64,000 nucleotides of DNA, taken from NCBI GenBank assembly GCA_016647705.1, contig CM028326.1, forward strand, positions 45,538,785 to 45,602,784. The letters run 5' to 3'. The position numbers and the translations under genes are program-made. Under the pieces are notes generated by a model, which was not told the origin of the DNA, ran no database searches, and worked only from the letters and a program-made list of their open reading frames with translations. Of the stretch, positions 2,559 to 58,739 are shown in pieces (position 1 is the stretch's first letter; each line of letters starts with the position of its first letter). This stretch comes from Eucommia ulmoides. Its lineage: Eukaryota; Streptophyta; Magnoliopsida; Garryales; Eucommiaceae.

Positions 2559-2842
2559 TTGAATCCAAGGTTTTGATGAACAATTAAGTATTGATATTTT
2601 TGGTGAAATTAATAGTTTTATTGAGTGTTTCAGATTTACAGTTCCATGCATGTGATAAATAAGAAGACCTTATGAAGAAAACATAAAGGATGCAAGACGA
2701 ACGTAAAGAAGATGTGAAGAGTTTTGAAGACCTTCAAGAAAAATAAGTAAAAACAACTCTTTACTTATATACTCTTAATACAACCCAAATTAGGATCACA
2801 CACTACACTTTAAATAGTTAATTATATGTGTATCATGGTAAG
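2559..2842 (+). repeat. SIRE-like copia 3' LTR, left part
   Basis: Begins TGTTGAATCCAAGG, the start typical of SIRE/Maximus LTRs, downstream of the RNase H tail and a purine tract. It stops abruptly at 2842, where element A begins. The LTR plausibly resumes at 18204 and ends near 19690; together that gives about 1.77 kb. The continuity is inferred from position and sequence style, not from an alignment. Confidence 0.6.
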
Positions 2843-3034
2843 TGATAAGTGTAAAATACCTATCTACTTCTAAGCCGAAATTGTCAGTTTTCAGGTGTTT
2901 TATTAATGTTTTAGTGTGTTTTTGTTAGTTTTTATATAATTCAGGTGTAGGGACGTTAACGATCTATAAACGAGCGAAATGGTAAAAAAAGGGCAGAGAA
3001 ATGATGGAAAAATACAAGATTTCAAGACAGTTTA

Positions 3035-3275
3035 GCCACCGCCGCAGTGGTGAGAATACAGAGAAGGGGTATTTGAGCCCAACATCCCACCACCGCAACA
3101 GGATTCCACCGCCGTGGTGGTAAAAGATCAGAGAGTTTGAAGACTGTTCCACTGTCGCGGTGGTAAAATGACAGAGAGTTTCTAAGTTCACCGCCTCCTC
3201 CAACACCGCAGTGAAGGTCAAACCGACTTACCCACCGTCGCGACGGTAAATCCTATCGCTATGGCGGTCAGCTTT
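3035..3275 (+). repeat. GC-rich palindrome cluster in U3 of element A (5' LTR)
   Basis: A run of variants of CCACCGCCGCGGTGG separated by short AT-richer spacers. It sits just upstream of the TATA-like box at 3321. Equivalent clusters occur at 16445-16725 in the 3' LTR and, with another core, in elements B and E. Function unknown; possibly regulatory. Confidence 0.7.
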
Positions 3276-3320
3276 GCACAGATAGGAAGATATTTTTAGA
3301 TCTTTTTGAAACCTTAGGCC

Positions 3321-3328
3321 TATAAATA
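3321..3328 (+). promoter_or_regulatory. TATA-like box of element A 5' LTR
   Basis: TATAAATA follows the GC-palindrome cluster. The same arrangement recurs at 16772 (3' LTR of A), 4321 and 8007 (the two LTRs of B) and 25108 (solo LTR E). The conserved placement supports a Pol II core promoter at the U3/R boundary. Confidence 0.65.
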
Positions 3329-4049
3329 CCACTCTCCCACGTCTGAAACAGGTTGTTGAACGTTCCTGACCCTAGTATAGTGTTTTTTAGCCATTCTTGA
3401 GAGATCAAGGAGAAGGTTCAACATTTGGACGAAGACGAAGCATTTGTGGAGCGATAATTAGCGACAGTGGACTGTTCTACTCTCAGATTTGATCATTCTT
3501 CTCTTGTTTTTATCTTTGTAATTACTCTTCATTATCTAATGATGTTGAATCACTCTTGTTTTGTATGTTTATATGGCTAAGATCATGTAGTATTAGATAA
3601 ATATTATCTAGGTGTTATTTTAAGTCATGTAATTTCTAGTTGATTGAATATATGTTACTTTAATGGTTGATTATCAAAATCCGATTGTGTTTACCGTTAT
3701 TCTTGTTATTATGCTAATTTAGACAATTAGAGAATACGGAGTTTGACACTCGGGAGAGGTAACTCATAGGTGTGAAAAACCTATCTATTTCCAATCCAAA
3801 TTTGTTAGTTTTTGAATATGTTTATAGTTATTTTTATTATGTTTTAATTAGTTTTTATCTTTTTGTATAAATCAGGCGTGTAGGGCAAAAAGATAGGAAA
3901 CTGGAGCTGAAACGATGAGATCGAACCAAAGTGGTTCGAAGTTACGGTGGATAAACAAGCTCGGAGGCTAAAAGATGAAACAGGCCCACCACTTAAGTGT
4001 CCAGACCACTGCCTAAGCGGTGAAAATGCAGAGAAGAGCAAAATGTTAT

Positions 4050-4275
4050 TGACGGACGATCGCCTAGGCCAAGATTCTATCGCCTAGGCGAAAATCCAGC
4101 AGAGGACGCAAATAGGCTACTGACAGCCGCTCGCCTAGGCGGAAATTCTACCGCCTAGGCGAAAATCTAACAGAATGTTCTCCAAGTCCACCGCCTACTT
4201 TACCGTCTAGGCGATCAGACCAAACCGACCTAACTCCGCCTAGGCGCAATTTCCACCGCCTAGGCGGATTTGCCC
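4050..4275 (+). repeat. CGCCTAGGCG palindrome cluster in U3 of element B
   Basis: About seven occurrences of CCGCCTAGGCGG or close variants within roughly 225 bp upstream of the TATA box. The frame CCGCC-NN-GGCGG is the same as in A and E, but the central bases are TA rather than GC. The 3' LTR has the same cluster at about 7735-7955. Confidence 0.75.
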
Positions 4276-4781
4276 TGCACAGTCTTGAGATATTTTTAGA
4301 TATTTTTAGGATATTTTTGCTATAAATATCCCCTCTCCTCCTCCTTGGCCGGTAGCTCTCTTCTCTCTCTTGCATTTTTTAGCCCCTTAGGCTATATTTA
4401 ATCCAAAGGTTAGGAATTTTAGTGGTGGAGCTCGCATCCCGAAGTGGAGAAGACGACGAATTGATCGTTGAGTGTTCTTAGCGGTTTATCTTCGGACGAG
4501 GCTAAGTTCTTCGATCGTTTTTCCTTATTTCTTTATCTTAGGAGCAAGTAAGCATATTTAGATCGTTATTTTATTGTATATGCGGCTATGGCCCCGAGTT
4601 AAATATGGATTGTAGTAGGGATTAATACAATATTTATAAATACGTTATTTGGATGATTTCGGTGTTTCGTTTGTGATTGTTCTTCGTAGTTTCATTGTAT
4701 TTATCGTATTATTTGTTTATTATGCTTGGATTGAGAAATGGAGAATACGGGGTTTTGAAAAAACCCCGGATTCGGATTAGG

Positions 4782-5180
4782 GTAAACAAACGCTATGATT
4801 CTATAACCCAGTCGGGGTTTGAATCATAGACAATCGATGACGTTGGGCAAGACACACGCTACCTAGGGTCGTTAAGACGTTGAGGGGGACTTCTTCGTTG
4901 ACTCGAAGTTACGTTATATCCCTCGTCTTATACTCGGAAGAGGTGGCGAGAGAGTTTTAGAACGGAGATTGTCGATAGGGTAAATACAATGCAACGATCC
5001 AATAACCCAGGAGGGAGTTGGATTGTGTGCAATCAATGACGCTGGGCTAGACTCACGTGACCTAGGGTCGTTAAGATGTTGAGAGGGACTTCTTCGTTGG
5101 CTCGAAGTCATGTATTCCCCCGTCTTACACTCGGAAGAGGTGGCGGTGGAGTTTACGTACCGAGGTTGTCAAATAGGTCG
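4782..5180 (+). repeat. Two tandem copies of a block of about 200 bp in B 5' LTR
   Basis: Each copy runs through a TCCAATAACCC-like start, GTTGGGC.AGAC, CGTTAAGACGTTGAG, CTTCTTCGTTG, a TACACTCGGAAGAGGTGGCG motif and GAG.TTGTC. Copy 1 is about 4782-4980 and copy 2 about 4981-5180. The 3' LTR has the same pair. Element A has one copy and solo LTR E three. Confidence 0.75.
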
Positions 5181-5499
5181 AACAACGTAAACGCGAGTAA
5201 ATCGGAATCGAACACGTATTTGTAAACACGTTAATCCCTATGTAATTCTTCACCCTAAAACATATTAACATAATAGTGTAGTTAATTTAGGATATATTAG
5301 TATTAGTTTAATTAATTAAATACATTTGTTTTTCGCCTAGATAAACTTAGGTCACGACAAACGCGGTATTTGATAGTAACGACAACAATCCTTGTGGATA
5401 CGATAACCCAATCTTAACGATCACACTATACTAAAACTTAAACCTTGTATACTTGCAAGTGTAAGTAGCGGCGTGTCATTTCCCGCGCTATCAAGTTTT

Positions 5500-5517
5500 T
5501 GGCGCCATTGCCGAGGA
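5500..5517 (+). promoter_or_regulatory. Primer-binding site of element B (tRNA-Asp type)
   Basis: TGGCGCCATTGCCGAGGA, 6 bp after the LTR end. It differs by two bases from TGGCGCCGTTGCCGGGGA, the complement of the 3' end of plant tRNA-Asp and the usual Athila primer site. Confidence 0.85.
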
Positions 5518-7449
5518 TTGTTTTGATGTTATTGTCGAAGAAACGCGGTAACGGCTCAGGACTTATGTTTTAGATAGGAGAAGCAAGTGTTTCGTATTGC
5601 TGGGATTGGTGATGTCATTCATTGTCGATATTGTGTGTAAATGACCTAATTTTATTTTAGGCATTTCTTTGTATATAATTTTTGTTTGTAGTTTTGTTTT
5701 TATTTCCAATGTAGGGTACTTGGCGATGTTAGATCGACGGGTATTGATGCATCCCTTTCGACGGGATTCCAAATCGTTTTATGTTGCTTGGCCAAGCACA
5801 TAAGCCGGTGAGGCGTTTCGTTGAAAGACCGAGCCATCGAAAGCAAAATCTCGTCAATATTGAGGGCATTCTGAATGTCGGGCTGAGGACATTAAACCAC
5901 ACGCTTCTTAGGAGGCAGCCCAAGAAATTATTTTTGATCCATCACATCCGACTTGATTCTGAGGCGAGATCCTCTCTCGCCTCCCAGGTAAGTGTTCTAA
6001 ACACCCTTCATCAGCATGCGTTAAATTTCATATGTTGAGATTGATGATTGGGTTCGCTGAGGACACTGTCCACTTTGAGTTTGGGAGTGATGTGTAGTAG
6101 TAGTATGTTAGTTTATGTGTTATTGTTTTTCCGTATTGCATGTTTGTTTAGGTTAGAATGTGTTTGCGTTTTTGTTTTCATGTTGAGTTTTGTGTTCATC
6201 TAGGCCGTCACCCGATGATGAAAATTACCCCTGGTTCTTTTTGAAGTGAAGGGTAATACCCATGCATGTGTGATTCTGTGTGCTTGACTATGCGTTTTGG
6301 TAAAAATTATTGTAGATCCTAATTTGCACGGGCACATAGACTCAATGTATAGTCATTCAATTGATTTGAGGACGATTATCGATTTACCAAATTCATGACA
6401 CATTAAGGATTCTAGAACTTGATTGAGGGGAAGCTTGAGGTGAAATCCTAGGCGAGGTAGTTCAGGAGACGTGATTTAGGCATTCGTTTTGTCGCTTGTG
6501 CCCTTGAAGCCTACCTTGATATATGTTTATCCCTCGTCACCCTGTCGAAGCCTAAACGCAAATTCAATTCAGAACACATAAACCGATACCATGGCCAATT
6601 GAATTCCTTCCAGTCCTTTATCGCTAGACCAAATGCACAATTTGAGCGAATCAAGTTAGCATTCATTATGCTTCTTGATGTGAGCGGTTGGGATTAGGGC
6701 GAACTTCAAATTGGTTCGGTACTTGAGTACTCACTTGTCGTTTTTCATTTGTATTTCACACACCCCTTTAATTGTAACAATCAAATAAGTTTGGGGGTGT
6801 GTTCGTTGAAAAGAAAAGAAAATAAAATAGAAAATAAAAAACTAAAATGTAAATACGGTTTTTATTTCCGTTTCTTTTTGACAAGTAAGTACGTAGGTCT
6901 TCAATGCATGTTCGGGATTATTTTCCAATCTTTCTATTGGGATTCGAGAGTGAATGTGCCAAGCGTTGAGCCTTGGGTAACGTTAACCCGTTTTCTATTC
7001 CAAATTACCCTTGGCCAAATAAACCAAAACCGAACCAAGTCCTAATGATCTTCATGAACTACTAAACCTACATTAGTGGAGAGTAGACCCCAATCCTACT
7101 TATGGTAATCCTTAACTCATGAATTTCGTTGGTGGATAATCCAATCCGATTGTTGTATAGTTATATTATTGAGTCTCGCACTAACACGTTTACAGGATCT
7201 AGAATAGTATTCACCATTATTGCATGTCGAAATTCTAGAACATTACATGCTGTGTGTTACCGCCAGAACTCGAAATAATTGGCGGTTGTTGAGGAAAAAA
7301 TAAATAGGCCGTTAGAAGAATTTAAAACTCGCATGTTGTTATGTTTAGATTGTTTTTCGGTTTTTTGTTATTTATTTCCGTTTGTGTATTTTTCATTTTA
7401 GTGTGTGTGTTTGGCTCGAGGACTAGCCAAATTTTGAGTTTGGGGGTAT
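5518..7449 (+). other. Internal region of element B, no coding capacity seen
   Basis: Only short, unrelated ORFs. From about 5960 onward it resembles the 3' non-coding part of element A: both carry CCCGATGATGAAAATTA, CATAGACTCA.TGTATA, CTAGAACTTGATTG and the GTTTGGGG tract before the 3' LTR. This segment probably holds packaging or replication signals supplied in cis, an inference from its retention in an otherwise stripped element. Confidence 0.7.
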
Positions 7450-9178
7450 TGATAGGTGTGAAAAACCTATCTATTTCCAATCTAAATTTGTTAGTTTTCG
7501 AATATGTTTATAGTTATTTTTATTATGTTTTAATTAGTTTTTATCTTTTTGTATAAATCAGGCGTGTGGAGCAAAAAGATAGGAAATTGGAGTTAAAACG
7601 ATGAGATCGAACTAAAGCAGTTCGAAGTTACAGTGGATAAACAAGCTCGGAGGCTAAAAGATGAAACAGGCCCACCGCTTAGGCGTCCAGACCACCGCCT
7701 AAGCGGTGAAAATGCAGAGAAAAGCAAAATGTTACTGACGGACGACCGCCTAGGCGAAGATTCTATCACCTAGGCAGAAATCCAGCAGAGGACACAAATG
7801 GGCTACTGACAGCCGCTCGCCTAGGCAAAAATTCTACCGCCTAGGTGAAAATCTAATAGAATGTTCTCCAAGTCCATCACCTACTTTACCGCCTAGGCGA
7901 TCAAACCAAACCGACCTAACTCCGCCTAGGCGCAATTTCCACCGCCTAGGCGGATTTGCCCTGCACAGTCTTGAAATATTTTTAGATATTTTTAGGATAT
8001 TTTTGCTATAAATATCCTCTCTCCTCCTCCTTGGCTGGTAGCTCTCTTCTCTCTCTTGCATTTTTTAGCCCTTTAGGCTATATTTAAGCCAAGGGTTAGG
8101 AATTTTAGTGGTGGAGCTCGCATCCCGAAGTGGAGAAGACGGTGAATCGATCGTTGAGTGTTCTTAGTGGTCTATCTTCGGACGAGACTAAGTTCTTCGA
8201 TCATTTTTCCTTATTTCTTTATCTTAGGAGCATGTGAGCATATTTAGCTCATTATTTCATTGTATATGCGGCTATGGCCCCGAGTTAAATATGGATTGTA
8301 GTAGGGATTAATACAATATTTATAAATATGTTGTTTGGATGATTTCGGTGTTTCGTTTGTGATTGTTCTTCGTAGTTTGATTGTATTTATCGTATTGTTT
8401 GTTTATTATGCTTGGATTGAGAAATGGAGAATACGGGGTTTTGAAAAAACCCTGGATTCGGATTAGGGTAAACAAACGCCATGATTCTATAACTCGGTCG
8501 AGGTTTGAATCATGGACAATCGATGACGTTGGGCAAGACACACGCTACCTACGGTCGTTAAGACGTTGAGGGGGACTTCTTCGTTGACTTGAAGTTGCAT
8601 TATATCCCTTGTCTTACACTCGGAAGAGGTGGCGAGGGAGTTTTAGAACGGAGATTGTCAATAGGGTAAATACAACGCGACGATCCAATAACCCGGGAGG
8701 GAGTTGGATTGTGTGCAATCAATGACGCTGGGCTAGACTCACGTGACCTAGGGTCGTTAAGTCATTGAGGGGGATTTCTTCATTGACTCGAAGTCATGTA
8801 TTCCCCCGTCTTACACTCGGAAGAGGTGGCGGTGGAGTTTACGTACCAAGGTTGTCAAATAGGTCGAACAACATAAACGCGAGTAAATCGGAATCAAACA
8901 CGTATTTGTAAACACGTTAATCCCTAAGCAATTCTTCACCCTAAAACATATTAACATAATAGTGTAGTTAATTTAGGATATATTAGTATTAGTTTAATTA
9001 ATTAAATACATTTGTTTTTCGCCTAGATAAACTTAGGTCACGACAAACGCGGTATTCGATAGTAATGACAACAATCCATATGGATACAATAACCCGATCT
9101 TAACGATCACACTATACTAAAACTTAGTCTTCGTATACTTGCGAGTGTAAGTAGCGGCGTATTTTTCCCGCGCTACCA
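7450..9178 (+). repeat. 3' LTR of element B
   Basis: Begins TGATAGGTGTG and ends GCTACCA, followed directly by the target duplication GTAAC. TATA-like box at about 8007. Same layout as the 5' LTR. Confidence 0.9.
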
Positions 9179-9710
9179 GTAACCCCCGATTTGGACTAGG
9201 GCAAACACAGCTCTACATTCTAACGACCCGGGAGGGTGTTAGAAGGTATGCAATCCATGACATTGGTTCAAGATGCATGTGACTATGTGTTCGAAAAGAC
9301 GTTCGAGGGGGACTTCGGCATCAACGTGAAGTCATATATTCGTTCGCTTTACACTCGGAAGAGAGAGTGAGCTAGTTGTAGATACAAAGATTGTCGAATA
9401 GGATAAACACCGTTATCGCTAACTAAACGAAGTTAAATATGTATTATTTGAAAGAAATCAATACCTAGGTAATCAATATAGTTAGAACTAACCCAATAGT
9501 TGTAATTTATCTTAGTTGTTAATTAGAATACAAACAATTCTTGAAAATTCGAGATAATATGAGACTATGAAAATCATGGTATTCAACTAATTTACACTAT
9601 CCTCAGTGGAACGATATCCGATCTCACAATCCATCTATACTAAAACTTGACCTAATGCACTTGCGAGTAATGTCAGACGTGAGCGTCTTAAATGGTCGCA
9701 TATAAGTTTT

Positions 9711-9782
9711 TGGCCCCGTTGCCGGGAATCGAACCTGGGTCACCTGCGTAATAGGCGAGAATACTCACCACTATACTACAAA
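9711..9782 (-). pseudogene. tRNA-Asp-derived sequence inside the LTR of element A (5' copy)
   Basis: Read on the minus strand this is a tRNA-Asp from about nucleotide 5 to the terminal CCA: the D-arm region GTAGTATAGTGGTGAGTA, an anticodon arm with a changed loop (CTATTAC in place of CTGTCAC), a T arm containing GGTTCGATTCC, and the CCA end. The first few nucleotides of the acceptor stem are replaced by LTR sequence. It starts exactly where the primer-binding site would start, 6 bp after an LTR end, so it is an extended primer-binding site running through nearly the whole primer tRNA. The acceptor stem is broken and the anticodon loop mutated, so a working tRNA is unlikely. Confidence 0.85.
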
Positions 9783-9850
9783 ATCCCTAGTATAGTATTC
9801 TTTAGACATTTTTGAGAGATCAATGAGGAGGTTCATCATTTGGACGAAGA

Positions 9851-10185
9851 CATTTCAAGAATTGTTTGTATTTTAATTACAACTAAGATAAATGACAATT
9901 ATATGGTTAGTTCTAATTATATTGATTACCTAGGTATTGATTTCTTTCATGTGATACATATTTAACTTCATTTAGTTAGCTATAACGGTGTTTATCCTAT
10001 CTGACAATCTCTGTATCTACAACTCGCTCACTCCCTCTTCCAAGTGTAAAAAAAACGAATATATGACTTCGCGTTGACGCCGAAGTCCCCCTCGAATGTC
10101 TTTCCGAACACATAGTCACATGCATCTTGAACCAACGTCATGGATTGCACACGTTCTAACGCCTTCCTGGGTCGTTAGAACGTCG
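9851..10185 (-). repeat. Inverted LTR segment in A 5' LTR
   Basis: Reverse complement of the LTR part at about 9230-9540 of the same element. It forms a long imperfect inverted repeat whose loop holds the LTR end, the tRNA-Asp sequence and the R-region copy. Confidence 0.8.
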
Positions 10186-10793
10186 CATTGTGTTTACCGT
10201 TATTCTTGTTATTATGCTAGTTTAGATAATTAGAGAATACGGGGCTTGACAGTTGGAAGAGATAACCCCGGATTCAGATTAGGATAAACACAACGTAACA
10301 TTCTAATGACCCGGGAGGGCGTTAGAAGGTGTGCAATCCATGACGGTGGTTCAAGACGCATGTGACTATGTGTTTGAAAAGACGTTCGAGGGGGACTTAG
10401 GCATCAACGCGAAGTCATATATTCGTTCGCTTTACACTCAGAAGAGGGAGTGAGCGAGTTATAAATACAGAGATTGTTGGATAGGATAAACACCGTTATC
10501 GCTAACTAAACGAAGTCAAATATGTATTATATGAAAGAAATCAATACCTAGGTAATCAATATAGTTAGAACTAACCCAATAGTTGTAATTTATCTTAGTT
10601 GTTAATTAGAATACAAACAATTCTTGAAAAGTTGAGATAATATGAGACTATGAAAATCACGGTATTCAACTAATTTATACTATCCTCAGTGGAACGATAT
10701 CTAATCTCACGATCCATCTATACTAAAACTTGACCTCATGCACTTGCAAGTAAAGTCAAACAAAAGCGTCTTAAATGGCTGCGTCCAAGTTTT

Positions 10794-10811
10794 TGGCTCC
10801 GTTACCGAGGA
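10794..10811 (+). promoter_or_regulatory. Primer-binding site of element A
   Basis: TGGCTCCGTTACCGAGGA, 6 bp after the LTR end CGTCCA at 10787. A degraded tRNA-Asp-complementary site. Unlike 9711 and 17741, it does not extend into the rest of the tRNA. Confidence 0.8.
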
Positions 10812-10984: not shown

Positions 10985-12270
10985 ATGGCCGGTGGGGAAG
11001 AAAATGTCCAGCAACCGCCGGTGCTGCAGGCACTCCAACCTCCGGAACCAGAGTGCCCTCAAAGAGTCCTTTGGGATTATTACAGACCATTGATGCTGGA
11101 GAATTTCTCAGGTATCCGGAGGAAACCTATTCAGGCTAACAACTTCGAACTTAAGCCTACCCTCATTAATATGGTGCAACAGAACCAGTACAATGGAAAT
11201 CTGCATAAGGATCCCAATGTACATTTAGCTACTTTTCTGGAGATTTGTGATACAGTGAAGATTAACGGTGTTGCGGAAGATGTAATCCGGTTGCGGTTAT
11301 TTCCATTCTCACTTCGTGACAGAGCACGGGGTTGGTTTCAATCTATTCAGTCGGGAAGCATTAACACTCGGGAAGACCTTGCTCAAAGGTTCCTCACTAC
11401 ATTTTTCTCGTATTCAAAGAATTCTTAACTCCGCGGTAAGATTGCGTAGTTTTGCCAAAGGGATTATGAGCCGTTGTTTGAAGTGTGAGAGAGGTTCAAA
11501 GACTTATTGCGTAGGTGCCCTCAACATGGGTATCAGGATTAGTTTCAAACCCAACTCTTTTACAACGAGTTGGACAGCCAAACAAGAACAATTGTTGATG
11601 CTGCCTCTGGAGGATCGTTGCTATCTAAAACCCCAACTGAAGCAAAGCATTGTAAGAATAAATGGCGGCCAATAACTACCAGTGGCTAAACGAGAGGAAC
11701 ACAGGAAGAAGGGTCTCTTCCATTCAAGAATATGATCATCTCACGACCTTATCGGCCAAAGTCACCAAACTCTCGGTTTAATTGGTCACCTTGTCTACTA
11801 AGGGTGCTTCGTCAAGTTATGGAGAGGAGAATTTTGTAAGCAGTTCTCAAACCCGATTGGATAATGAGTTTGAGGAATGTCACTTTCTAAACAATTGAGC
11901 CTATACTTTCAGGTCCGCCACCAACATTCCAACTCACTTCAATCCTGGTCTTCGTAATCATGAAAATATGCGAACAATTAGAACACGTTGAGGCCACCGA
12001 TCGAATATGGGACTCAAACTCAAGGATTTCTAATGCAAAAAAAACCGTCAAATGCAACAACCTCCAATTCCTAATCAAAAGCCAAACTTGGATGAAGTGT
12101 TGGGTTCTTTCATGAAGGAGACTCAGATAATTGTGCGTGAGACGCATAGTCGGCTTAACCAACATGAGGCGAGGCTTGACGCGATTGAGACCACGTGTAC
12201 GAACACAAATGCAACCGTGAAAACTTTGAAAACTGAACGCGGTCAAATTAAAAGTGCTATCAAGTATTAA
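10985..12270 (+). pseudogene. Athila-like gag of element A
   Basis: The ATG at 10985 opens a 147-residue frame with NNFELKP.LI.MVQQNQ, then DPN.HL..FLEICDTVKINGV, and IRLRLFPFSLRDRARGW, the conserved core of Athila-type Gag (retrotrans_gag). This protein packages element RNA in virus-like particles. A frameshift near 11400 moves the reading to another frame, and more breaks follow. The C-terminal part resumes at 12052-12270 with QQPPIPNQKPNLDEVLGSF, a linker, and a heptad-like helix (SRLNQHEARLDAIETT). Upstream is the primer site at 10794. No protease or polymerase follows. The family call is firm; the exact number of breaks is not resolved. Confidence 0.85.
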
Positions 12271-13030: not shown

Positions 13031-14351
13031 TCCTATTTTTTCTATCAAGTAAGTGTTTTTCAACTTATATTTCATGTTTATCATGAAATTATATGATGAT
13101 TTGCATCTATATTTCAAAAATGGTTGAATTTGGAGACTGCCCAAAACCCTAGGCCCTTTTTTCTTGGTTTTTCTTTTCAAGTTTGGGGTTTATGCTTCAT
13201 CTTTGGTAATGATTATCATTAGAGATGGAGTTTGAGTTGTGTGAAGATGGATTTCTAGCTACATTGTCGAATTTTTGTGAAACCATTGTGGTTGGTATGT
13301 GTGGATTGTGAATAGGGGATATTCTCGACGGTTTGGATTCGTTATATTGATTTATGTTGTTCAGTTTTGATTGCATTGTTCTATTCTGTGACTATGATTA
13401 CTAGGGACCATACTAAAAAGAGTGGCTTCCAAAAGGGCAAGAAGATGAGAAGCTTCGGAGCCGATCCCGAATTTTGATTCAACAAAATTTGTGTCAAAAG
13501 CTGCGGAAGAACACTACAATCGTTATGAGCGCAACCGGCCTTGCAAAAAATAAAGAGGCTTCGGGCCTATGGATGCTCTTCCGACGAAATTTCGTGATGC
13601 TATCCAAGGAAGGGGATGGGAGAGATTCTGCAGATCGCCTCCCTTAGCTGAGGTAGCGTTAGTCCAGAAGTTTTATGCAAATATTGTTGAAAGGACGGGC
13701 AGCCATACTAGAGTCCGCAGCTGCCATGTTGATTTTAGTCCTGAACGGTTTATTTAGTTTTTGCAATTGGCACCGTTGGCATGGTCTAACGAGCCAGGAC
13801 TGAGTATGGAAACCGTTATCTGGGCCCTAACAACCAGAAATGTTGAATGGACTGTTACAGGGCCAGAGCAAGCCACCTTCCCGTCCAAATACCTCGATCC
13901 GATTCCAAAGATTTGGTACTATTTTATCTGTGGGAATCTCCTTCCAACCTCTCATCATTCAGATGTTTCGTTAGAGAGGGTTATGACGTTCTATGCAATC
14001 CAGACTGGGAACTTGATCAACGTAGGATTTTTGATTTATTCGTTGATTCTCCATGTCGTCAGAACGACGAAGTCCGGTCTTTCATTCCCCTCTTTCTTGA
14101 TTGAACTTTTCCGTCAAGCCAGTGTCGTAATCAGTGAGGATAATCTGTTGGTCCCTAATTCTCAGCTTAATTATGCATTGATAAAAAGAATATGGAAAGA
14201 GAGAGCACCAAGGCAGGCCGAAGAAATAGGGGAAGCACAAGAAGCACATGCGGGGTTTAAGGTAGGGCCTTCTAAGGCCTCGATTCCCAATGTACCCAGA
14301 CAAGCCCCAAGTGATGTGGAGCGTATTTATCAAAATATCCGGAATATTTAG
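13031..14351 (+). pseudogene. ORF2 of element A: 'putative plant transposon protein' domain (Transposase_32-like), broken
   Basis: From about 13412 a frame reads DHTKKSGFQKGKK, shifts near 13471 to EEHYNRYERNRP, meets a stop near 13550, then continues GWERFCRSPPLAEVALVQKFYANI and VDFSPERF, another stop at 13755, and a 196-residue stretch (13761-14351) with SMETVIWALTTRNVEWTVTG, IWYYFICGNLLPTSHHSDVS and GFLIYSLILHVV. This is the pattern of the plant transposon protein domain found downstream of pol in Athila-type elements (PF20167-like, from memory). Function is not established; it is often compared with Athila env-like ORFs. A likely leader intron begins at GTAAGTG (about 13048) and ends at an AG near 13406; 13031-13047 would be leader exon. 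Confidence 0.7.
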
Positions 14352-16255
14352 CTTGACAACCGTGTTCTACAACAAGCGTAGTATAATACGAATTTCTGGA
14401 TTACCGCGCTAGGGGCTTACATGGATCAATGCACGCAGTATCATGATCAAGTGCACCGGTTCATGTGCAAGCGTTTTGGCTATAACAGGAGTATTTTTCT
14501 GCAAAGGCCGTAAATGTTGCCCGACCTTTCGCAACCACCACAATTCCCTTTCACACAAGGCAATGTTCCCCCAGAAAAACAGTACGAGGTGAGACTTCTA
14601 CGTCTCATCTCCTAGGTATGTGTTCTAACCCAATATTTTTCGCTACATGCTATATATTGCAATTGGGTTCACTGCTCAGACAGTGGGGATACTGCCTCAT
14701 TTAAGTTTGGGGGGGGGGGGTGTTATGGTGTTTATCCATGGTGTTCATCCTTTTTTTTTATTTATTTAGTTTTTTTTTTTGTAGAAAATGATGAACCAAA
14801 ATTTTTGTATGCATAGTTATGCTTTGTAAACGTTCTAATTTATAATGTAGATGTTAATTTCTAGTTAAGTGGTATTTTAACCTTTGTTTATGTATGTGTA
14901 ATGTTTAGTTAGAGTATGTATGCTAGTTTTTAGATTTAGAGTAGATATGTTAATAAATGATGTTGTATGAGCATGTCAAGTTTTTGATTTCGTCTGAGCT
15001 ATGTCCCGATGATGAAAATTATCCCCTAATTGTATATTGAGGTCGGGGGTAATGCCATTCATGTGCGTTTTGTGTGCTTAGCATGTCTATTAGGTAAAAA
15101 TTATTTTGATCCTAAAATCGCACGATCGCATAGACTCAGTGTATAATTATTTGAATGATTTGACGACGATTATTCAGTAATAAGTTCATAACAGAAATGT
15201 GGAATCTAGAACTTGATTGGGGGAGGCTTGAGGCGAAATTATAGGTGAGGTAATTCCAAAGGCAGGATTTAGGCCTTCAATTTTATCGCTTGAACCTTTT
15301 TGAAACTAGCCTGAAAAATTTATTCTCTTGTTCCCCTGTTGAAGCCCATAAACTTTTCAATTCTGAACACATATCTATACTTTAGCTAATTAAATCTTTC
15401 CAAATCATTGTCGCTAAGCCTAAAAGTCGAAATTGAGTGAAATCAAGTAGCATTAGTTTATGCTAACTTGAAGTAAGCAGGCAGGGTTTAGGACGAAAGT
15501 TTATTGGTTCAGTATAAACGTATTCACTTGTCAAAATTTTAGTTCATTTTGCACGCCTCTAATTTGTAAAATTTTGAATAAGTTTGGGGGTGTGCTTGAA
15601 AAAAAAAACTGTGAATATAGTTTTTAATTCCGTTTGTTATGACAAGTGAATACAAGTTTATTAAATTCTTGTTCTGGGTTGTGTTTTCAAAGTTAGGGAG
15701 TTACGAGAGAGATGTAGCGACAAGCGTTTGTGCCTTAGGTATCGTTAAATTATAATGATTTTCTGTTTTCTAGTCCTACGATACCCTTGGTCGTTCTGCA
15801 AAGCAAAACCAAGCTCTATTGATCTCTATGAGTTTCCAAACCTACAGTAGTGGATAGTCGAGCCCAGTCAAGCATATGGTTTTCCAAATCCCTTGTGGTT
15901 TAAGTCATGAACTTAACTATTGAATAATGTAATCCGGTGTTTAAATGGTTATATATTTGAGTTCTCACACGCACACATTTCAAACGGATCTAGAATGGTT
16001 TTAACTGATATTGAGTATTAAAATTCTAGAACACCACGTAGTGTGTGTTATTCCTGAACTTGGTCTGATCAGGGGTTGTTGAGGGAAGAACTACTAGGTT
16101 TCTTCGATTGAAGTTGGAACTTGCATGCCTTTACTTCTTGTTTGTTAATGTTTATAATTTTTTAGATTAGTTGTTAGTTAATTAGCGTCGTTGGTTTATT
16201 TTAGTGTTAGGGTGTTTTGCTCAAGAACTAGCAAAATTCCAAGTTTGAGGGTATT
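14352..16255 (+). other. 3' non-coding region and polypurine tract of element A
   Basis: Coding traces of ORF2 continue weakly to about 14520, then only non-coding sequence. It is related to the internal region of element B. It contains a run of 12 G near 14709. The tract CAAGTTTGAGGGTATT immediately before the LTR at 16256 is the plus-strand primer. Confidence 0.7.
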
Positions 16256-17740
16256 TGATAGGTGTAAAATACCTATATACTTCTAAGCCGAATTTTCCGA
16301 TTTTCGAATGTTTATTAATGTTTTAGTGTGTTTTTGTTAGTTTTTATATAATTCAGGTGTAGGGATGTTAAGGAGCTATAAACGAGCAAAATGGTAGGAA
16401 AACGGCGGAGATACGATGGAAAAATACAAGGTTTTTGGACAGCTTAGCCACCGCCGTGGCGAGAAAGCCACTACCGCAGCGGTGAGAATGCAGAGAAGGG
16501 GTATTTGAGCCTAGCGTCCCACCGCCGCAGTGGGATTCCACCGCTACAGCGGTAAAAGATCACAGAGTTTAAAGACTGTTCTACCGCCGTAGCGGAATTC
16601 CACTACCGCAGCAGTAAAATGACAGAGAGTTCCTGAGTTCACTGCCTCCTCCACCACCATGGCGAAGGTCAAACCGACTTACCCACCATCGCGGCGGTAA
16701 ATCCCACCGCCGCGGTGGTCAACTATGCATAGACAAGAATATATTTTTAGATCTTTTTGAAGCCTTAGGCCTATAAATACCACTCTCCCATGTTTGAAAT
16801 AGGTTGCTGAACGTTCCTAACCCTAGTATAGTGTTCTTTAGCCATTCTTGAGAAATCAAGGAGGAGGTTCATCATTTGGACGAAGACGAAGCAGTTGCAG
16901 AGCGATACTTAGCGACAGTGGACCGTTCCACTCTCAGATTTGATCGTTCTTCTCTTGCATTTATCTTTGTAATTACTTTTTATTATGTAATTATGTTGAA
17001 TCACTCTTGTTTTGTATGTTTCTATGGCTAAGATCATGTAGTATTAGATAAATATTATCTAGGTGTTGTTGTAAGTTATGTAATTTCTAGTTGATTGAAT
17101 ATATGTTACTTTAATGGTTGTTTATCAAAATCCGATTGTGTTTACTGTTATTCTTGTTATTATGCTAGTTTAGATAATTATGGAATAGAGGTTTGACACT
17201 CGGGAGAGATAACCCCGGATTCGGACTAGGATAAACACAACGTGACGTTCTAACGACCAGGGAAGGTGTTAGAAGGTGTGCAATCCATGACGTTGGTTCA
17301 TGACACATGTGACTATGTGTTCGAAAAGACATTCGAGGGGGACTTCAGCGTCAACGCAAAGTCATATATTCGTTCACTTTACACTCGGAATAGAGAGTGA
17401 GCGAGTTATTGATACAGAGATTGTTGGATAGGAAAGACACCGTTATCGCTAACTAAACGAAGTCAAATATGTATTATATGAAAGAAATCAATACCTAGGT
17501 AATCAATATAGTTAGAAATAACGCAATAATTATAATTTATCTTAGTTGTTAATTAAAATACAAACAATTCTTGAAAAGTCGAGATAATATGAGACTATGA
17601 AAATCACGGTATTCAACTAATTTACACTATCCCCAGTAGAACGATATCCGATCTCACGATCCATCTATACTAAAACTTGACCTCGTGCACTTGCGAGTAA
17701 AGTCAGACGTGAGCGTCTTAAATGGCCGCGTTCAAGTTTT

Positions 17741-17812
17741 TGGCGCCGTTACCGGGGATCGAACCCGGGTCACCTGCATGATAGGCGGGAATACTCACCA
17801 CTATACTACAAA
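17741..17812 (-). pseudogene. tRNA-Asp-derived sequence inside the LTR of element A (3' copy)
   Basis: The better preserved copy. On the minus strand it has an A box (TAGTATAGTGG), anticodon stem CCCGC/GCAGG with loop CTATCAT (anticodon ATC in place of GTC), an intact T arm with B box GGTTCGATCC, and a 3' end that includes CCA. The 5' acceptor strand reads ATTTTTG instead of GTCGTTG and no longer pairs well. Pol III boxes look intact, so minus-strand transcription is possible, but a mature tRNA is unlikely. Confidence 0.88.
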
Positions 17813-17881
17813 AATCCTAGTATATTGTTTTTTAGCCATTTTTGAGAGATCAAGGAAGAGGTTCATCATTTGGACGAAGAC

Positions 17882-18203
17882 GTTTCAAGAATTGTTTGTA
17901 TTTTAATTACAACTAAGATAAATGACAACTATAGGGTTAGTTCTAACTATATTGATTATCTAGGTATTGATTTCTTTCATGTGATACATATTTGACTTTG
18001 TTTAGTTAGCTATAACGGTGTTTTTCCTATCCGACAATCTCTATATCTACAACTCGCTCACTCCCTCTTCCGAGTATAAAGCGAACGAATATATGACTTC
18101 GCGTTGACGCCGAAGTCCCCATCGAACGTCTTTTTGAACACATAGTCACATGCGTTTTGAACCAACGTCATGGATTGCTCATGTTCTAATGCCTTCCCAG
18201 GTC
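17882..18203 (-). repeat. Inverted LTR segment in A 3' LTR
   Basis: Reverse complement of about 17250-17578, matching the inverted arm at 9851-10185 of the 5' LTR. Ends at the truncation point of the LTR. Confidence 0.8.
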
Positions 18204-19690
18204 GATCAACCGTTTGAGTCAGTAGATGAATTGGTGGGAAAATGGATCACACAAATCCAATCGCTCAACCGATTGGGTGTGATTAGTGAACCGACCAGCT
18301 TAAAGCCAACGTTTATATTGGGAGCTGGACAGGTCGGTTAATCGACCTATAGGACTCGATCAACCGACTGAGTTAGTTAAAATTTTGGGTTATTTGGTCT
18401 CGTAGTAAAAAACTATCAATTTTTTATGATTCTAAGAGAGGAATTTTAGGGAATTTGAACTTAATTGAACTATTAACAACCTATTATGTTATTCCTATTG
18501 ATATGGTCCATATATTTTGAGATTATCCTAATTTAAATGGTTTAGTACTTCCTATTTCTATGGTTTTAAATTGAGAATAGTTTCATGGACTTAATTGAAA
18601 GGATTGAAAGTTATTTTTAAGTAAAATACACCTAAAATGAAATGTAATCATATATGGGGTCCAAGAGTGTCATTAAGTGGCATATCTTTGAGAAACTAGC
18701 CATTGGAGGGCTTTATTATAAGTTCTTGATCTAAAGAGCTTGTGGTTTGGCGTCACCAGCCTGAGTTCTATTGCTATTCTATCATTATCTTCGGTGTTTT
18801 CTGGTGAGATCTATCCAAACTTTATTATTTACTTTGAAGTTATTTTTTTATTGATTGCTTGGTATATGATTGATTAGAAAATCGTTTTAAGCTTAAAAGT
18901 GGGAAAATCTTTTTTAAACGATTTTTTGTTTGATTATTTGATTACGTACTTAAATTCTGCTACCCATTTTAGTAATTAATTAGATTTTATTTGTCTCATA
19001 TTGTATCTATCACAAAGTAATAGCGTTTTGTGGGAAAAAAAAAACTTGCAGTTTTTTGTATTTGTGAGTTTGAATGAATTAAACACATTTGGGACGGTGT
19101 CTACTCTGAGTTGCTAGGTTTCGATCTTTTTCCTGTGAAAAATATTAGGGTTTGATCTTTGTCTAGGTAAAAATATTAGGTTATTTTTTTCCCTTGAAAA
19201 GATCTAGGTTTTGATTCTTCTAGTAATTTAATTATTTTTTGAGTGAATTGTAAATGTTCATCCTCCCCTGTGAAAAGGATAAATGAGAGGGTGTTATGTT
19301 TTTCTTTAGCCTGGTAAAAAGATAAGGGTTCATCTTTGGCCTGAGAAAAGGGTAATTTGTAAAGGTTAATTCTGTGCATGTAGAAGATTTGTTGTAAGGG
19401 TTTGGTTCTTACCCAGTAAAAGGATCAAAGGATTTAGTGGATTGCGAATCTTTGTGGAACTCAGGGGACCGGATATAGGTAAAAGTAGCTTATTGAATCA
19501 GGATATATTGTTGTGTACTACATTACTTATTTTCTTATATTGTGTTTGGGTGTGCATTTAGTATTAAACACATTTTCGATGCGTAACAAGATAATAATTG
19601 ATTTAGAAAAATCGGTTATTAGTGTTTAAGTGTTTAAGTGTTTAATTATTTAAATTTAGTAACTACCCAATTCACCCCCCCTCTTGGGTC
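18204..19690 (+). repeat. SIRE-like copia LTR, right part
   Basis: Opens with several phrases of the type GATCAACCGACTGAGT, common in SIRE/Maximus LTRs, and ends with CCAATTCACCCCCCTCTTGG, the usual 3' end of such LTRs. It probably continues the LTR begun at 2559, interrupted by element A. No coding sequence. Confidence 0.6.
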
Positions 19691-24630: not shown

Positions 24631-26396
24631 TGATAGGTGTAAATTACCTATCTATTTCCAAACCGAATTTGTTAATTTTCGAGTACATTTATTATGTTTT
24701 AATACATTTTAATGTGTTTTTATTCTTTTTGTATTAAAACAAGTGCATGGGGTGAAAAGGTATGAAATCGGAGCAAAAACGATGAGATCGAACCAAAAAA
24801 CGGTCGAAGAACGGTGGAAAAACAAGCTCGGAGGCAAAATTATGAAACAAGTCCACCGCCGTGGCGTCCGGACCACCGCCGCGGCGATGAAGATGCTGAG
24901 AAGACACCAAAGTTGCTGAACTTCCATGGCGGCGGCACAAGATCCACCACCGCAGCGCAAAAGATGCAGGATGTTCTTCCTATTCCACCGGCTTCTTCAT
25001 CGCCGCGGCGATCAACTAACCAACCTACCCACGGCCGCGGCGATGAATCCCACGGCTGCGGTGGTGGCCTCTGCACAGTTTAGATATTTGTTAGATATTT
25101 TTTAGCCTATAAATACCCTTCTCTCCTCCTCTCTTCCGACTTCTTCGGCCCCTAAGGCCTTAGGCCATATTTTAGGGTTCGGAATAGGGATTTTTCAAGG
25201 AGAGCTCTCAACCCTAGATGGAAGATGAAGAGGGAAATAACCGTTTGACGGTTTTAACAACTATTCTTCGGATATTTGCTAAGTCGCTCGTTTCTTCTCT
25301 TTGTTTTCTTCATTTTGGTAGTTGTTAAGCATGTTTAGGCTATTTTACATTGTATATGTGGTTATGGCCATTGGCTAAACATAGGTTGTATAGGGATTAT
25401 TAATATAATTTATGAGAACGTTGTTTAGTTGAGTTTGTATTTTGTTTGCAATTGTTCTTCGTTATGTTGATTTTGTGTGACGTATTGTTTGTTTATATTG
25501 CTTAGATTTACATATCGAGAATACGGGGTTTGATAAATCCCGGATTCGGACTAAAATAAACAAACGCCACAATCCTATAACCCAGTCGGGGTTTGGATTG
25601 TGGACAATCGATGACGTTAGGGAAAGACTCACGTGACCTAGAGTCGTTAAGACGTTGAGGGGGACTTCTTCATTGATTCGAAGTCGCGTATTCCCTCGTC
25701 TTACACTCAGGAGAGGTGGCGAGTGAGTTTTAGAACTGAGATTATCGATAAGGTAAATACAACGCACGAAATCAATGACATTGGGGCGAGACTCACGTGA
25801 CCTAGAGTCGTTAAGACATTGAGGGTGACTTCTTCGTTGATTCGAAATCACGTCATATCCCTCGTCTTACACTCGGGAGAAGTGGCGAGGGAGTTTACGA
25901 ATTGAGATTTTGTGTGCAAATCAATGAGGTTGGGGCAAGACTCACGCAACCTAGGGTTGTTAAGACGTTGATGGGGACTTCTTCGTTGATACGAAGTTGC
26001 GTTATATCCCCCGTCTTACACTCGAGAGAGGTGGCGGAGGAGTTTTAGATACCGAGATTATCGGATAAGTTGAACGCCGTTAACATAAACTAAAACGAGA
26101 CTAAACACGTATTCGTAAACGAAACTAATCCCTAGACAACCTATTCTCTCAAAACTATCTCATCTTAATATTAGTATTAGTATTAGTATAGATTAAATTA
26201 AGCTATATTAGTATTAGTATTACTTAATTATATTCCATTTTTGTCCCCTAGATAAAGTCAGGTTATGACAATCGCGGTACTCGATAGTAACAACATCAAT
26301 CCATGTGGATACGATACCCGACCGAAAGGTCCATTGTGCTAAAACTTGATCCGTATACTTGCGGTGAAAGTGGCAGCACTTAATTAGCGGCCACCA
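24631..26396 (+). mobile_element. Solo LTR E (A/B superfamily)
   Basis: Begins TGATAGGTGTAAATTACC and ends GGCCACCA. Flanks TCGAG (24626-24630) and CCGAG (26397-26401) look like a 5-bp target duplication with one change. The U3 palindromes (24854-25070) have CCGCCGCGGCG cores, the TATA-like box is at 25108, and the downstream block is present three times (25554-26070). No primer site or internal region follows, so it is a solo LTR, presumably formed by LTR-LTR recombination. Confidence 0.8.
25554..26070 (+). repeat. Three tandem copies of the LTR block in E
   Basis: Copies at about 25554-25751, 25752-25910 and 25911-26070 each carry GAC(G/A)TTG, GACTCACG, CGTTAAGAC, ACTTCTTC.TTGAT and CGTCTTACACTC. 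Copies 2 and 3 lack the first 40 bp or so of copy 1. Confidence 0.75.
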
Positions 26397-27160
26397 CCGA
26401 GTAAGAGGAGACGAACTCTAGCCGATGAAGAAAAGATGGCGTCCCTGGCCGGCAACAGCAAACACTCTGAATGATGCCTCATATGGGCAGACCTCTAGAC
26501 GACATCGCTAGAATGGGAACCCACCATACCGCTGTGTTGCTTCTGTCCGGCAGCGAGCGGCGGGGGACCCTTGATGAACGTTCTAATCTTAGGTAGGGTG
26601 TCTTATATCCAATGGAAACATACATGATGAACAGGGTCGACATCTTCTGGCCGGCACGGCGCAAATCGGTGTCCACTGTACTGCCATGTTGTTTCTAGCC
26701 AGCAGCATGTAGGTAGGGGGCCTTATTTCAAGTGCCGAGTAAGGCAGTGCCCTTTTTCTCTAGATGATGGTATTCCTAGATGGTAACATTGCAGTGCAAG
26801 CTGAAATCGCGGCCGATGGTGGCGAAATCGTCGAACAAAAATGTCGGACAAGACCGACATTGACGAATTAGCCTCGACACACCTCAACACTCCATGCCGC
26901 AAGAATTTTAGGCCAACGGAGCCTCTGTTCGGCAGCAATAATTGCGGTCCTCTCCCGAAACAACGCAAAGGCGTGAGAATTTCTTTGGCAGCCATCGGTG
27001 AAATGAGCGCTTACTGCCCTATCGCTTTGCTTCTATATGTCAAGGTTTGCAGGGTGACCCTATCTCTAAAGCGTTATTCAAAAAACATGAACCATGGAAA
27101 GTTTTTGGCACGATTCGAGAGTTGTAGTCCTGAGTACCTCTCTCCTTTCGGCGTCCAAGA
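26397..27160. other. Tat element 3' region, continued
   Basis: Short ORFs on both strands, none recognisable. It leads into the polypurine tract at 27161. Confidence 0.4.
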
Positions 27161-29395
27161 GTAGGGGGCAACTAATGATGGTATTTTTGGGCGTCACTTC
27201 GTTAGCACTTAAGCCTCATCCACGTGTCTATATCTGGTAGCAAATTATTTCGTCGCTACGTTACCGCAAGTATACGAGTCAGGTTTTAATAGTATAGGAA
27301 GAGTAGGGTTGTCGTATCCACAGGGATTGATTTAAATTATCGTTAAGCACCGTAATTGTCGTAACCTAACTTTATCTAGGCGATTCAATTTTGGATTTTT
27401 ATAGAAATAAAGCTAAAACTAAAATAAGTACAAAAACAAAATAAAATATGATATAGATTATTTATACACTAATGTTCTAAGGGCTTGATTTCATCTCGTT
27501 ATTCCCGTGTTATCCTATTAAGCAATTATTAGTTAATTCTATTCATTCAACAATCTAGGTTTCTAAAACTCACTACTTCTTCCGAGTGTAAAGTGAGTGA
27601 ATATGCAACCACATCAACACCGATATCCCTGTCAAGCGTTTAAACGATTACATGCATCTTGCCCCAACCTCATGGATTGCACACATTCTAATAATCTCAT
27701 GAAACATTAGAACTTGTGTTGTGTTTTAACCTAGTCCGAATCCAGAGTTACCTCTCTTGAGCATCAAACCCAGTATTCTCAAATCAACCATAATATCATA
27801 TACAAGCATACAATAGAAGTGATAAAACGGTAAACACAATTGAATGACGATTCTAATTGATCAATTTAGAACTCGATTACCTCCTGGTCTCACGAGATCC
27901 TAAATTTTGAACTCGAATACTTAAGTGTTGATTTTCTCCCGAATTCACAACAACCTACGTTATGCATTCCCAAATCTGGTTATGAATTCAACCTCTCCTG
28001 AGTGTCAAATTCGTAACTCAACATTGTCTAAATCATTGGCCACATGAATCAAACACATTAGGCCTAAGGAGTGCATAAAATAGAATTAAACCTAACAATA
28101 GACAAAATATTCACAGCACGGTTCAAATGAGACTACGTTAAGCCCTAGATCTAAATTACGAACACAACATAGACAAATCCTTAGCTAATCTTCTCAATAA
28201 ATTTATAAATGTAGTATGTTCCGCACAATATTACAAATATAAACTTAGAACAAAAGATTAGGGAGAGAAAATGGAAGAGAAAATCTTATTGAGGATTTGG
28301 GCTCCGAATCTTCAATCTTAAGTGCCACCGATGATGTTTTCTTCATCGATCTTGCATCAAAACGCCATCACCCAGTGTTTTCCCCTTCAAAATTGCCTCA
28401 AATAGCTCCAAAATATCGCCTCTTGTTGTTCCTCCTTTGGCCTCCTATTTTTTTCCCATGAAAATGAGCTTAAATAACATAAATTAGAGTTTAGATGCGA
28501 CCAATCTCGCTGCAGCGCGCTCATGGCAGCGCTGATATCAGATTCTTCTTTTAGCCGTATCTTTCTCGTCCGAACTTTGATTGAGATGATTCAAAAACCC
28601 ATGGAAAGCTAAGATGTAGATATACAACTTCCATGTTTTTAGATTGTCCAAAGTCAGATTACATCATTGTAAAAAATGGTCTTGAAGTTACTGTACCTAA
28701 ACCAATTTTGCACATTTTTACCAATTTATTCAAAAACCTATAAAATAATACAAAAACACATTAAACTAACAAAAATGCTTGAAAACACACAAATATTTGA
28801 ATCCAAAAGTACTTGATTTGTAGGTAAATAAACCACTCATCAATATATTTTCTCCTCTCCTGGTCTCTATACGACCATCCTCAAGGACTTAGCCATTTTT
28901 CTCCATCAAGAATAAGTATCCTTAAGTAATTTGGATCAAACCCATAGGCTTTCGCAATGGGCCACAAAGCCAAAGTCCATGATATTATCTCCTCAAACAC
29001 TCCATCATAGACTAAGCACATGGTTTCGACTAATTAACAATGCTCACCACTCCGATTAAGCAATCCTAAGTGTTCTTCGCTCCTATAAATACCAAGAGAC
29101 AATCAATGCCCTAAGGTAATGCTCATTATTCTTATAGAAGCAATTGTGTAGTTTTTTTCCCCTGAACTTTTACTCTCACGCCGGAGGGGCTTTGCCAAGC
29201 ACACACTTGACGGGTCCATAAGCAAGTACCCGTTTTCTGGACGTCAGTTCTCCAGATCTCAGCTAGGCATTTAAAGAACACTTAACAAATTTTGGATTCT
29301 CCAAGTCTTCGAACTCCACCTCATCACGTCAACTTAGCACTAACTCCTACGTAGAATTTGACAGGACCATACTGCTGGTGTACACCAATTCCCGA
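27161..29395 (+). repeat. Polypurine tract and 3' LTR of the Tat element, split by solo LTR F
   Basis: GTAGGGGGCA (27161-27170) is a typical gypsy plus-strand primer. The LTR would start about 27172, run to 27234, be interrupted by F, and resume at 28843. The right part has a TATA-like box (TATAAATA, about 29084) and the run CTCACGCCGGAGGGGCTTTGCC near 29171-29192, typical of the R/U5 of Tat elements. The end near 29395 is not sharp. The orientation agrees with the integrase at 19695. Confidence 0.5.
27235..28842 (-). mobile_element. Solo LTR F (A/B superfamily), minus strand
   Basis: Read on the minus strand it begins TGATGAGTGGTTTATTTACC and ends GCTACCA, the same end as element B. Flanks ATATC (27230-27234) and ATATA (28843-28847) are a near-perfect 5-bp duplication. 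The interior shares CATGGATTGCACAC and the TACACTCGGAAGA motif on the opposite strand. Its U3 palindromes are of the CAGCGCTG type rather than CCGCC-NN-GGCGG. Confidence 0.75.
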
Positions 29396-46262: not shown

Positions 46263-46299
46263 ACAACCACAATAACGAAGAATAAAACCCCATAATTAT

Positions 46300-58730: not shown

Positions 58731-58739
58731 AGCATGCTC

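Follow-up and report, generated by a model that had tools for sequence, protein, structure and literature searches.

Copies of primer tRNA-Asp between long terminal repeat sequences of Athila-like retrotransposons in a plant genome

In textbook retroviral biology, the synthesis of plus-strand strong-stop DNA normally halts at the methylated A58 (m1A58) of the primer tRNA after 18 nt, and this stop has been tested in vitro and in HIV-infected cells. The locus described here raises the question of how both long terminal repeats (LTRs) of one retrotransposon could come to carry an almost complete copy of tRNA-Asp, followed by inverted LTR sequence, and whether this structure is an isolated accident or one case of a wider class.

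Structure of the window element

The window, i.e., the whole stretch of 64,000 nt that was analysed (45538785–45602784), is part of a 947-Mb plant genome and contains, from 2843 to about 18203, an element that we take to be Athila-like, the name coming from an earlier sequence-only reading of this DNA. The hallmarks of an LTR retrotransposon (LTR pair, primer-binding site (PBS) and polypurine tract (PPT)) are all present, and the tRNA-Asp of its PBS is one of several primers used by non-chromoviruses. The order in the 5' LTR is U3-R-U5 (A5), reverse-complement tRNA (tRNA'), R copy, inverted U5, forward U5 (C5) and PBS; in the 3' LTR it is U3-R-U5 (A3), tRNA', R copy and inverted U5, with a break at 18203. 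The features, in window coordinates, are:

2838–2842, plus strand: GTAAG, candidate target site, 5 bp left of the 5' LTR; right-hand partner not found
2843–3763, plus strand: opening part of the 5' LTR as far as the nested insertion (U3, R, start of U5); 84.9% identity to 16256–17213
3764–9178, plus strand: a younger element, also Athila-like, inserted into the 5' LTR; its LTRs are 94.3% identical, and its target-site duplication (TSD), GTAAC, lies at 3759–3763 and 9179–9183
9180–9710, plus strand: rest of U5 in the 5' LTR (A5) with an AGTTTT spacer before the tRNA; 90.6% identity to 17210–17741, ungapped
9711–9781, minus strand: reverse complement of tRNA-Asp plus CCA in the 5' LTR; 64/71 letters, Rfam 32.5 bits
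9785–9851, plus strand: copy of the 5' part of R in the 5' LTR (about 68 nt); 92.5% identity to 16821–16887
9850–10196, minus strand: inverted U5 (inv5); 89.3% identity to the complement of 9546–9200
10188–10196, plus strand: TTGTGTTTA, microhomology where the inverted U5 returns to forward U5, as read from the sequence
10188–10788, plus strand: C5, the third copy of U5, in forward orientation ahead of the working PBS; 91.2% identity to 17135–17758
10794–10811, plus strand: working 18-nt PBS for tRNA-Asp, as read from the sequence; PBS-like match at 10794
10985–11428, plus strand: fragment of gag (Retrotrans_gag, PF03732; score at the Pfam cut-off), within the 10958 frame
13758–14351, plus strand: open frame with Transposase_32 (PF20167), E 1.5e-20
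16240–16255, plus strand: PPT region preceding the 3' LTR, as read from the sequence
16256–17735, plus strand: 3' LTR (A3); the LTR in locus L026 ends at the equivalent of 17735
17741–17811, minus strand: reverse complement of tRNA-Asp plus CCA after the 3' LTR; 67/71 letters, Rfam 34.7 bits, ARAGORN call
17813–17882, plus strand: copy of the 5' part of R on the 3' side (about 68 nt); 91.4% identity to 16819–16888
17880–18203, minus strand: inverted U5 (inv3), stopping at 18203 against non-LTR sequence, by alignment

The sequence-only reading had claimed that the PBS runs on as almost the whole of tRNA-Asp to about nt 5, and comparison with the plant's own tRNA-Asp gene plus CCA bears this out: 64 of 71 letters match at 9711–9781 and 67 of 71 at 17741–17811. 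The reference tRNA-Asp agrees with this plant's own tRNA-Asp genes. The similarity does not stop at the length of a normal primer site, since past the first 18 nt the copies still match at 48/53 and 50/53 positions, respectively. Both copies are reverse complements, CCA first, running from nt 75 to nt 5, the last common base; LTR end, PBS and tRNA are continuous, in CCA-first orientation, and extend past A58. Scanning of the minus strand, a check that the same reading had proposed, identified a tRNA in both copies with Rfam cmscan (9719–9781, 32.5 bits; 17749–17811, 34.7 bits; gathering score 29), and ARAGORN called the 17741 copy tRNA-Asp and made no call for the 9711 copy. The working PBS (10794–10811, TGGCTCCGTTACCGAGGA) has the ordinary length of 18 nt and is complementary to tRNA-Asp; over-extension of the lentiviral type is absent, the letters that follow its end at 10811 (CAGTGTTTATA) being non-tRNA.

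Each tRNA copy is followed by an R copy and then by inverted LTR sequence, as had been claimed (R copies of 92.5% and 91.4% identity; inverted U5 at 9850–10196 and 17880–18203). The predicted return of the 5' LTR to forward orientation at a motif present on both strands also holds: in the normal LTR, TTGTGTTTA (17136) and the complementary TAAACACAA (17232) form an inverted pair. The further claim that both LTRs have the same structure stands in part. From U5 through tRNA and R to inverted U5 (17210–18204), the two LTRs align over 995 bp, ungapped, at 90.75% identity, and the first two junctions are therefore common to both. The third junction, with the segment 10188–10788, is found in the 5' LTR only, as the 3' LTR ends at 18203 and no counterpart of C5 lies to its right in the window. 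No copy of GTAAG was found on the right between 18150 and 18700; loss of this right-hand TSD copy is likely, because the right end is cut off at 18203. We read the missing third segment in the same way, as a putative loss of the right end. For an element with neither a demonstrated TSD nor a third segment in its 3' LTR, a later loss or an unusual end has to be assumed, which weighs against the mechanism proposed below. L026 contains an LTR of this subfamily, interpreted as a solo LTR, that lacks the tRNA and ends where A3 does.

The window copy looks non-autonomous or decayed. No reverse transcriptase, RNase H or integrase was detected in the five of eight stop-to-stop frames of at least 85 aa that were scanned (three minus-strand frames were left out), and among the scanned frames of the element gag and Transposase_32 were above the cut-off, with no polymerase or integrase domain. 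A protein homologue search with the Transposase_32 frame returned nothing at E 0.001.

Several other features were observed in the window. The Athila-like internal region contains, on the minus strand at 11426–11532, a match to Rfam snoR71 (40.7 against a gathering score of 40), which may be due to chance or to a captured snoRNA. More Athila-like LTR sequence occupies 24631–27810, with an inverted U5-like piece at 27545–27810. Two short tandem duplications look recent (29405–29765, 180 bp at 97.8%; 45772–46266, 250 bp at 98.4%), and 55305–64000 contains several inverted and direct repeats of 0.5–1.7 kb with 68–88% identity.

Recurrence of read-through and age of the window structure

A 32-mer of LTR end, PBS and T-loop of tRNA-Asp (up to 3 mismatches) occurs at 128 places in the genome, and a 25-mer of LTR end and PBS (up to 2 mismatches) at 8478; reversed control patterns gave 0 matches genome-wide. 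A total of 92 loci were fetched, 20 from matches to the junction query of the window and 72 from the 100 listed 32-mer places. The 20 loci cover 16 more of these 100 places and the window covers two; ten listed places with 3 mismatches, whose letters after the PBS were the least tRNA-like, were left out. The other 28 of the 128 places were counted and lie outside the 100 listed. L026, one of the 20 loci, was picked up through R alone and contains no read-through.

The 97 anchored rows obtained include the two window LTRs, W5 and W3. A tRNA copy of at least 27 nt is present in 87 of the 97 (85 loci with W5 and W3 counted apart). Shared junctions are limited to two pairs among the 94 rows with at least 23 nt, namely L013 with itself and W5 with W3. 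With each shared junction counted once and the two arms of L030 taken as one structure, the rows examined represent 84 distinct events of at least 27 nt, including that of the window; a threshold of at least 23 nt would give 91. The rows with less than 27 nt of tRNA (10/97) were excluded from the 84, because matches of 19–26 nt may be chance or ordinary leader. Read-through of tRNA-Asp is thus a recurrent class, of which the window is one case. It amounts to about 1% of the sites with a tRNA-Asp PBS (87 rows against 8478 sites), the two numbers being based on different match criteria.

Breakpoints are spread from just past A58 to nt 1 of the tRNA, with peaks at nt 5 (9 rows and 8 events, including W5 and W3) and at nt 1 (7 rows, 6 loci). 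The base opposite A58 is T in 85 of the 87 copies, i.e., the correct one, and misincorporation at modified tRNA bases was rejected on this ground. C-to-T changes opposite G34 (12/75) were likewise rejected as a mark of modification: they stand in a CAG context, and methylated cytosines of plants decay in such a context.

Capture of a chromosomal tRNA-Asp gene by recombination at the PBS would offer another source of the tRNA sequence, and at least ten such genes, sharing 15 nt with the PBS, are among the matches listed. The six tRNA-Asp genes fetched, however, lack the CCA; none of the seven rows (6 loci) that reach nt 1 runs into the 5' flanks of these genes, as judged by eye, and 84 different LTR junctions would demand as many separate captures. 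This origin is hardly conceivable.

Read-through is not specific to tRNA-Asp, an idea rejected because elements primed by tRNA-iMet show it too. The corresponding tRNA-iMet 32-mer has 21 places, nine of which, beginning with TGG (eight) or TGA (one), were read; the other twelve, tRNA genes by the look of their first three letters, were left out. All nine (L147–L155) extend 32 to 75 nt into tRNA-iMet, past A58, behind repeated LTR-end sequence, and L148 reaches the tRNA 5' end (nt 1). For six of the nine, the upstream sequence recurs at another place of the set, and the upstream sequences of L150, L151 and L153 have at least 39 further genome matches each, in the manner of LTR ends. One junction is common to L149 and L152, the only two such loci in the search and the one hint of propagation observed, and a read-through structure may occasionally be copied. 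Since the denominators differ (913 exact 14-mers for iMet; 8478 matches to a 25-mer with 2 mismatches for Asp), the rates for the two primers are not comparable.

The age of the window structure can be judged from 325 columns common to the five U5 copies. Identity is 90.8% between A5 and A3, 93.8% between A5 and C5, 92.0% between A3 and C5, 91.7% between inv5 and inv3, and 89.2–90.8% between either A or C copies and the inverted ones. As A5 and C5 are not less alike than A5 and A3, no measurable time separates duplication from insertion; with the five copies about equally diverged, the structure appears not measurably older than the insertion. To judge from these identities, the aberrant LTR would have been born in, or just before, the reverse-transcription round of the window insertion, and there is no apparent sign of long inheritance. 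Common to the inverted copies inv5 and inv3, and unseen in the other U5 copies, are 4 to 6 substitutions and a 1-bp deletion, which is evidence against pure self-copying in the window. These changes would fit a second template that differed slightly from the first; the alternative is that the structure was inherited for a short time.

An old heritable variant, amplified as a subfamily, would be expected in both LTRs, as observed, and could explain the changes common to inv5 and inv3; the iMet-type junction found at two loci also speaks for inheritance of this kind. Against such a history stand the A5–C5 identity, not lower than that of A5 and A3, and the genome search for the same junctions that the sequence-only reading had called for: among the 41 matches listed (best 40 of 1057 candidates), the whole junction query is found nowhere but in the window's two LTRs. 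We consider an old variant quite improbable.

Partners of the tRNA copies and LTR-tRNA-LTR palindromes

An inverted LTR end follows the tRNA within 250 bp in 34 of 96 rows (32 loci, L030 and L064 contributing two rows each), a forward LTR end in 6/96, and neither orientation in 56/96. In 84 of 94 rows, Athila-like sequence covers at least 50% of the partner, compared with 13 of 32 target flanks (Fisher p 1.2e-7; one flank, of L013, is counted twice); this contrast is indicative, because the recognition set was built from the window and the very loci fetched and contains many LTR ends, a bias towards partners and away from flanks. The remaining partners (10/94) were not recognised as element sequence.

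In three loci (L033, L037, L065) the partner matches only the LTR end of another subfamily, and in L090 and L099 it matches such an LTR end far better than its own. These five indicate a switch between molecules and led to the rejection of single-molecule snap-back as the sole mechanism. For L016, L100, L054 and L083, where no other arm of the set matches as well as the locus' own, snap-back may apply. The inverted pieces of L037 and L091 have their starts no more than 2 nt away from the complement of an 18-nt PBS, as read from the letters; in our reading, this would be the point where a normally stopped plus-strand strong-stop DNA ends.

Other arrangements are diverse. An LTR start follows the tRNA in the 6-kb loci L019 and L025, and L013 contains tandem tRNA'-U5 units. 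In L012 the sequence restarts upstream of the PPT after the tRNA, so that the 3' end of the element is repeated (a tandem 3'-end product); L024 was dropped as a further repeated 3' end, its arms being more tangled. L011 comes closest to the window: it has a forward LTR piece and, after it, a complete LTR in inverted orientation. In L030 and L064 both arms are read-throughs, and antisense tRNA meets sense tRNA between tail-to-tail LTR ends; the paired LTR ends are about 81% (L030) and 95% (L064) alike.

Microhomology of 2–5 nt is present in only 13 of 30 inverted junctions; others have filler. Many junctions with filler or without microhomology would suit end joining, in which linear cDNA with a tRNA copy at its right end is joined by host repair to another cDNA or to the chromosome, and the products are inserted later. 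The read-through end does sit at the right end of linear cDNA, ligation could produce tail-to-tail LTR pairs, and tRNA-bearing retroviral circle junctions are described (PMC12220202). However, the partner frequently starts within U5, R or internal sequence rather than at a cDNA end, the structures of the window and L011 need at least two switches in one LTR, and the starts in L037 and L091 lie at the PBS end expected on strong-stop DNA, not on finished cDNA. End joining is thus an unlikely, though not negligible, source of these loci.

Loci in which both outer LTR starts were found, with no PPT on either side (partly judged by eye), form a set of 11 palindromes, for which the 5 bases outside both outer LTR starts were compared. 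A perfect 5-bp TSD flanks six of the 11 (L011, L016, L036, L047, L059, L099). The palindrome in L027 has a TSD matching at 4/5 positions, and a homologous, uninterrupted target is present at 7171–7187 of the window. A TSD is absent in the other four (L028, L051, L053, L090): the right outer flank of L053 is sense tRNA, that of L090 is element sequence normally located before the PPT, and for L028 and L051 no reason is apparent. In a batch of 20 pairs, 14 of them with both LTR starts, the TSDs matched in 4/14, against 0/182 mismatched pairs. One or both arms run into the PPT and internal sequence in L017, L021, L033, L034, L044, L054, L082, L093, L096 and L100. In L122, the right-hand piece of L053, an inverted LTR start is directly flanked by sense tRNA-Asp; its sequence suggests a further tRNA-LTR joint in the same product as L053.

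Since a U3 start lies at both outer ends of a palindrome, integrase can insert it. The chances seem to us even that the palindromes are a distinct, hitherto unrecognised insertion class, in which a plus-strand strong-stop DNA that had been extended through a full-length primer tRNA was joined to a second strong-stop DNA in one particle, sometimes across subfamilies, and the product was inserted by integrase via the outer U3 starts. If so, such scars across plants would record the frequency of primer tRNAs without the m1A58 block, and full-length mature tRNAs, not 3' fragments, would have primed these elements. No report of genomic LTR-tRNA-LTR palindromes was found in the titles and abstract starts of the open-licence literature, a body that leaves most subscription papers outside. 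Integrated, recurrent tRNA-bridged LTR palindromes in a plant genome may be new; the kinds of step involved are already known from retroviruses.

Proposed mechanism and comparison with known systems

The scars very probably arose from plus-strand DNA that was read past A58 of a full-length primer and then switched template. The sequence-only reading had proposed primer read-through followed by template switching, and the 84 events in the same register of LTR end, CCA and tRNA, the Athila-like partners and the TSDs agree with this proposal. Anatomy, recurrence, partner identity and TSDs are observed; the strand, the order of events and a primer unmethylated at A58 are inferred.

According to this model, the minus strand of the LTR element would start on a host tRNA, here tRNA-Asp. 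Plus-strand DNA initiated at the PPT would copy U3-R-U5 and then the still-attached tRNA, running past the position of m1A58, often to near the tRNA 5' end. Read-through would deprive the DNA of the clean end on which the second strand transfer depends, and the nascent 3' end would move to another template (cDNA) in the same particle. The most visible target would be plus-strand strong-stop DNA of the second genome, giving LTR-tRNA-inverted LTR; other targets would include LTR starts, internal sequence or R. Palindromes formed from two strong-stop DNAs would have a U3 start at each outer end and could be inserted by integrase.

For the window, the favoured order runs along the minus strand, because both LTRs would then gain the structure in one round. 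Self-priming on the TAAACACAA/TTGTGTTTA inverted repeat in U5 (17232/17136) would come first; synthesis would then cross into R at GTC, run off close to the RNA 5' end and finally transfer to the tRNA end of a read-through strong-stop DNA; this strand and order are reconstructed from the finished product. The R copy starts about 47 nt downstream of a TATA box, a position that is not decisive for a start exactly at the RNA 5' end, and this more precise reading was dropped. Bypass of m1A is error-prone, and with T opposite A58 in nearly all copies, unmethylated primers are the simpler reading; the T is compatible with such primers, and faithful bypass could also give it.

On this reading, the genome keeps a natural record of failure of the A58 stop for two primer tRNAs, showing the stop sites along the tRNA and which templates were reached next. 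The record also shows that sequence passes between different subfamilies during this step and that LTR-tRNA-LTR palindromes are acceptable to integrase. Some primers, at least, would have been full-length tRNAs with mature 5' ends; primer length is a live question in plants, where tRNA fragments are described as primers in a recent review (PMC12786077). For annotation, reverse-transcription products may lie behind minus-strand tRNA-Asp calls beside LTRs, inverted LTR pairs and double PBSs, which would then be neither genes nor nested insertions.

The window element resembles the Athila clade of Ty3/gypsy, as described (PMC6317226), in its tRNA-Asp PBS, its gag and its relatives in the window and genome. 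It differs in having no polymerase or integrase frame among those scanned and in LTRs broken by tRNA and inverted U5. The complex LTR retrotransposons of Triticeae (Sabot and Schulman, 2007; PMC1950507) are also composites produced by aberrant template switching, there the fusion of two parent sequences; the main text of that paper does not mention tRNA, PBS, inversion, strong-stop DNA or palindromes.

In HIV with a primer lacking m1A58, plus-strand synthesis is described as passing A58 and able to reach the tRNA 5' end (PMC13191261). Such products are laboratory intermediates, and according to the same source the full-length one is not an active template, whereas the structures in this plant are integrated end products. 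The closest molecules are a circle junction of MMLV (Colicelli and Goff) and an HIV case, both with copied tRNA-Gly, in which 4 and 5 nt, respectively, are missing at the tRNA 5' end (as described in PMC12220202). Like the window, they carry reverse-transcribed tRNA with CCA beside an LTR end, and their missing nucleotides resemble the 4 nt missing in the window and the peak of breakpoints at nt 5. Each of the two is, however, a single molecule, a circle or a provirus flank, and tRNA-Gly is not the usual primer (PMC12220202). In the plant genome, by contrast, the copied tRNA is that of the usual primer and lies between LTR pieces, in 84 distinct germline events, several of them with 5-bp TSDs.
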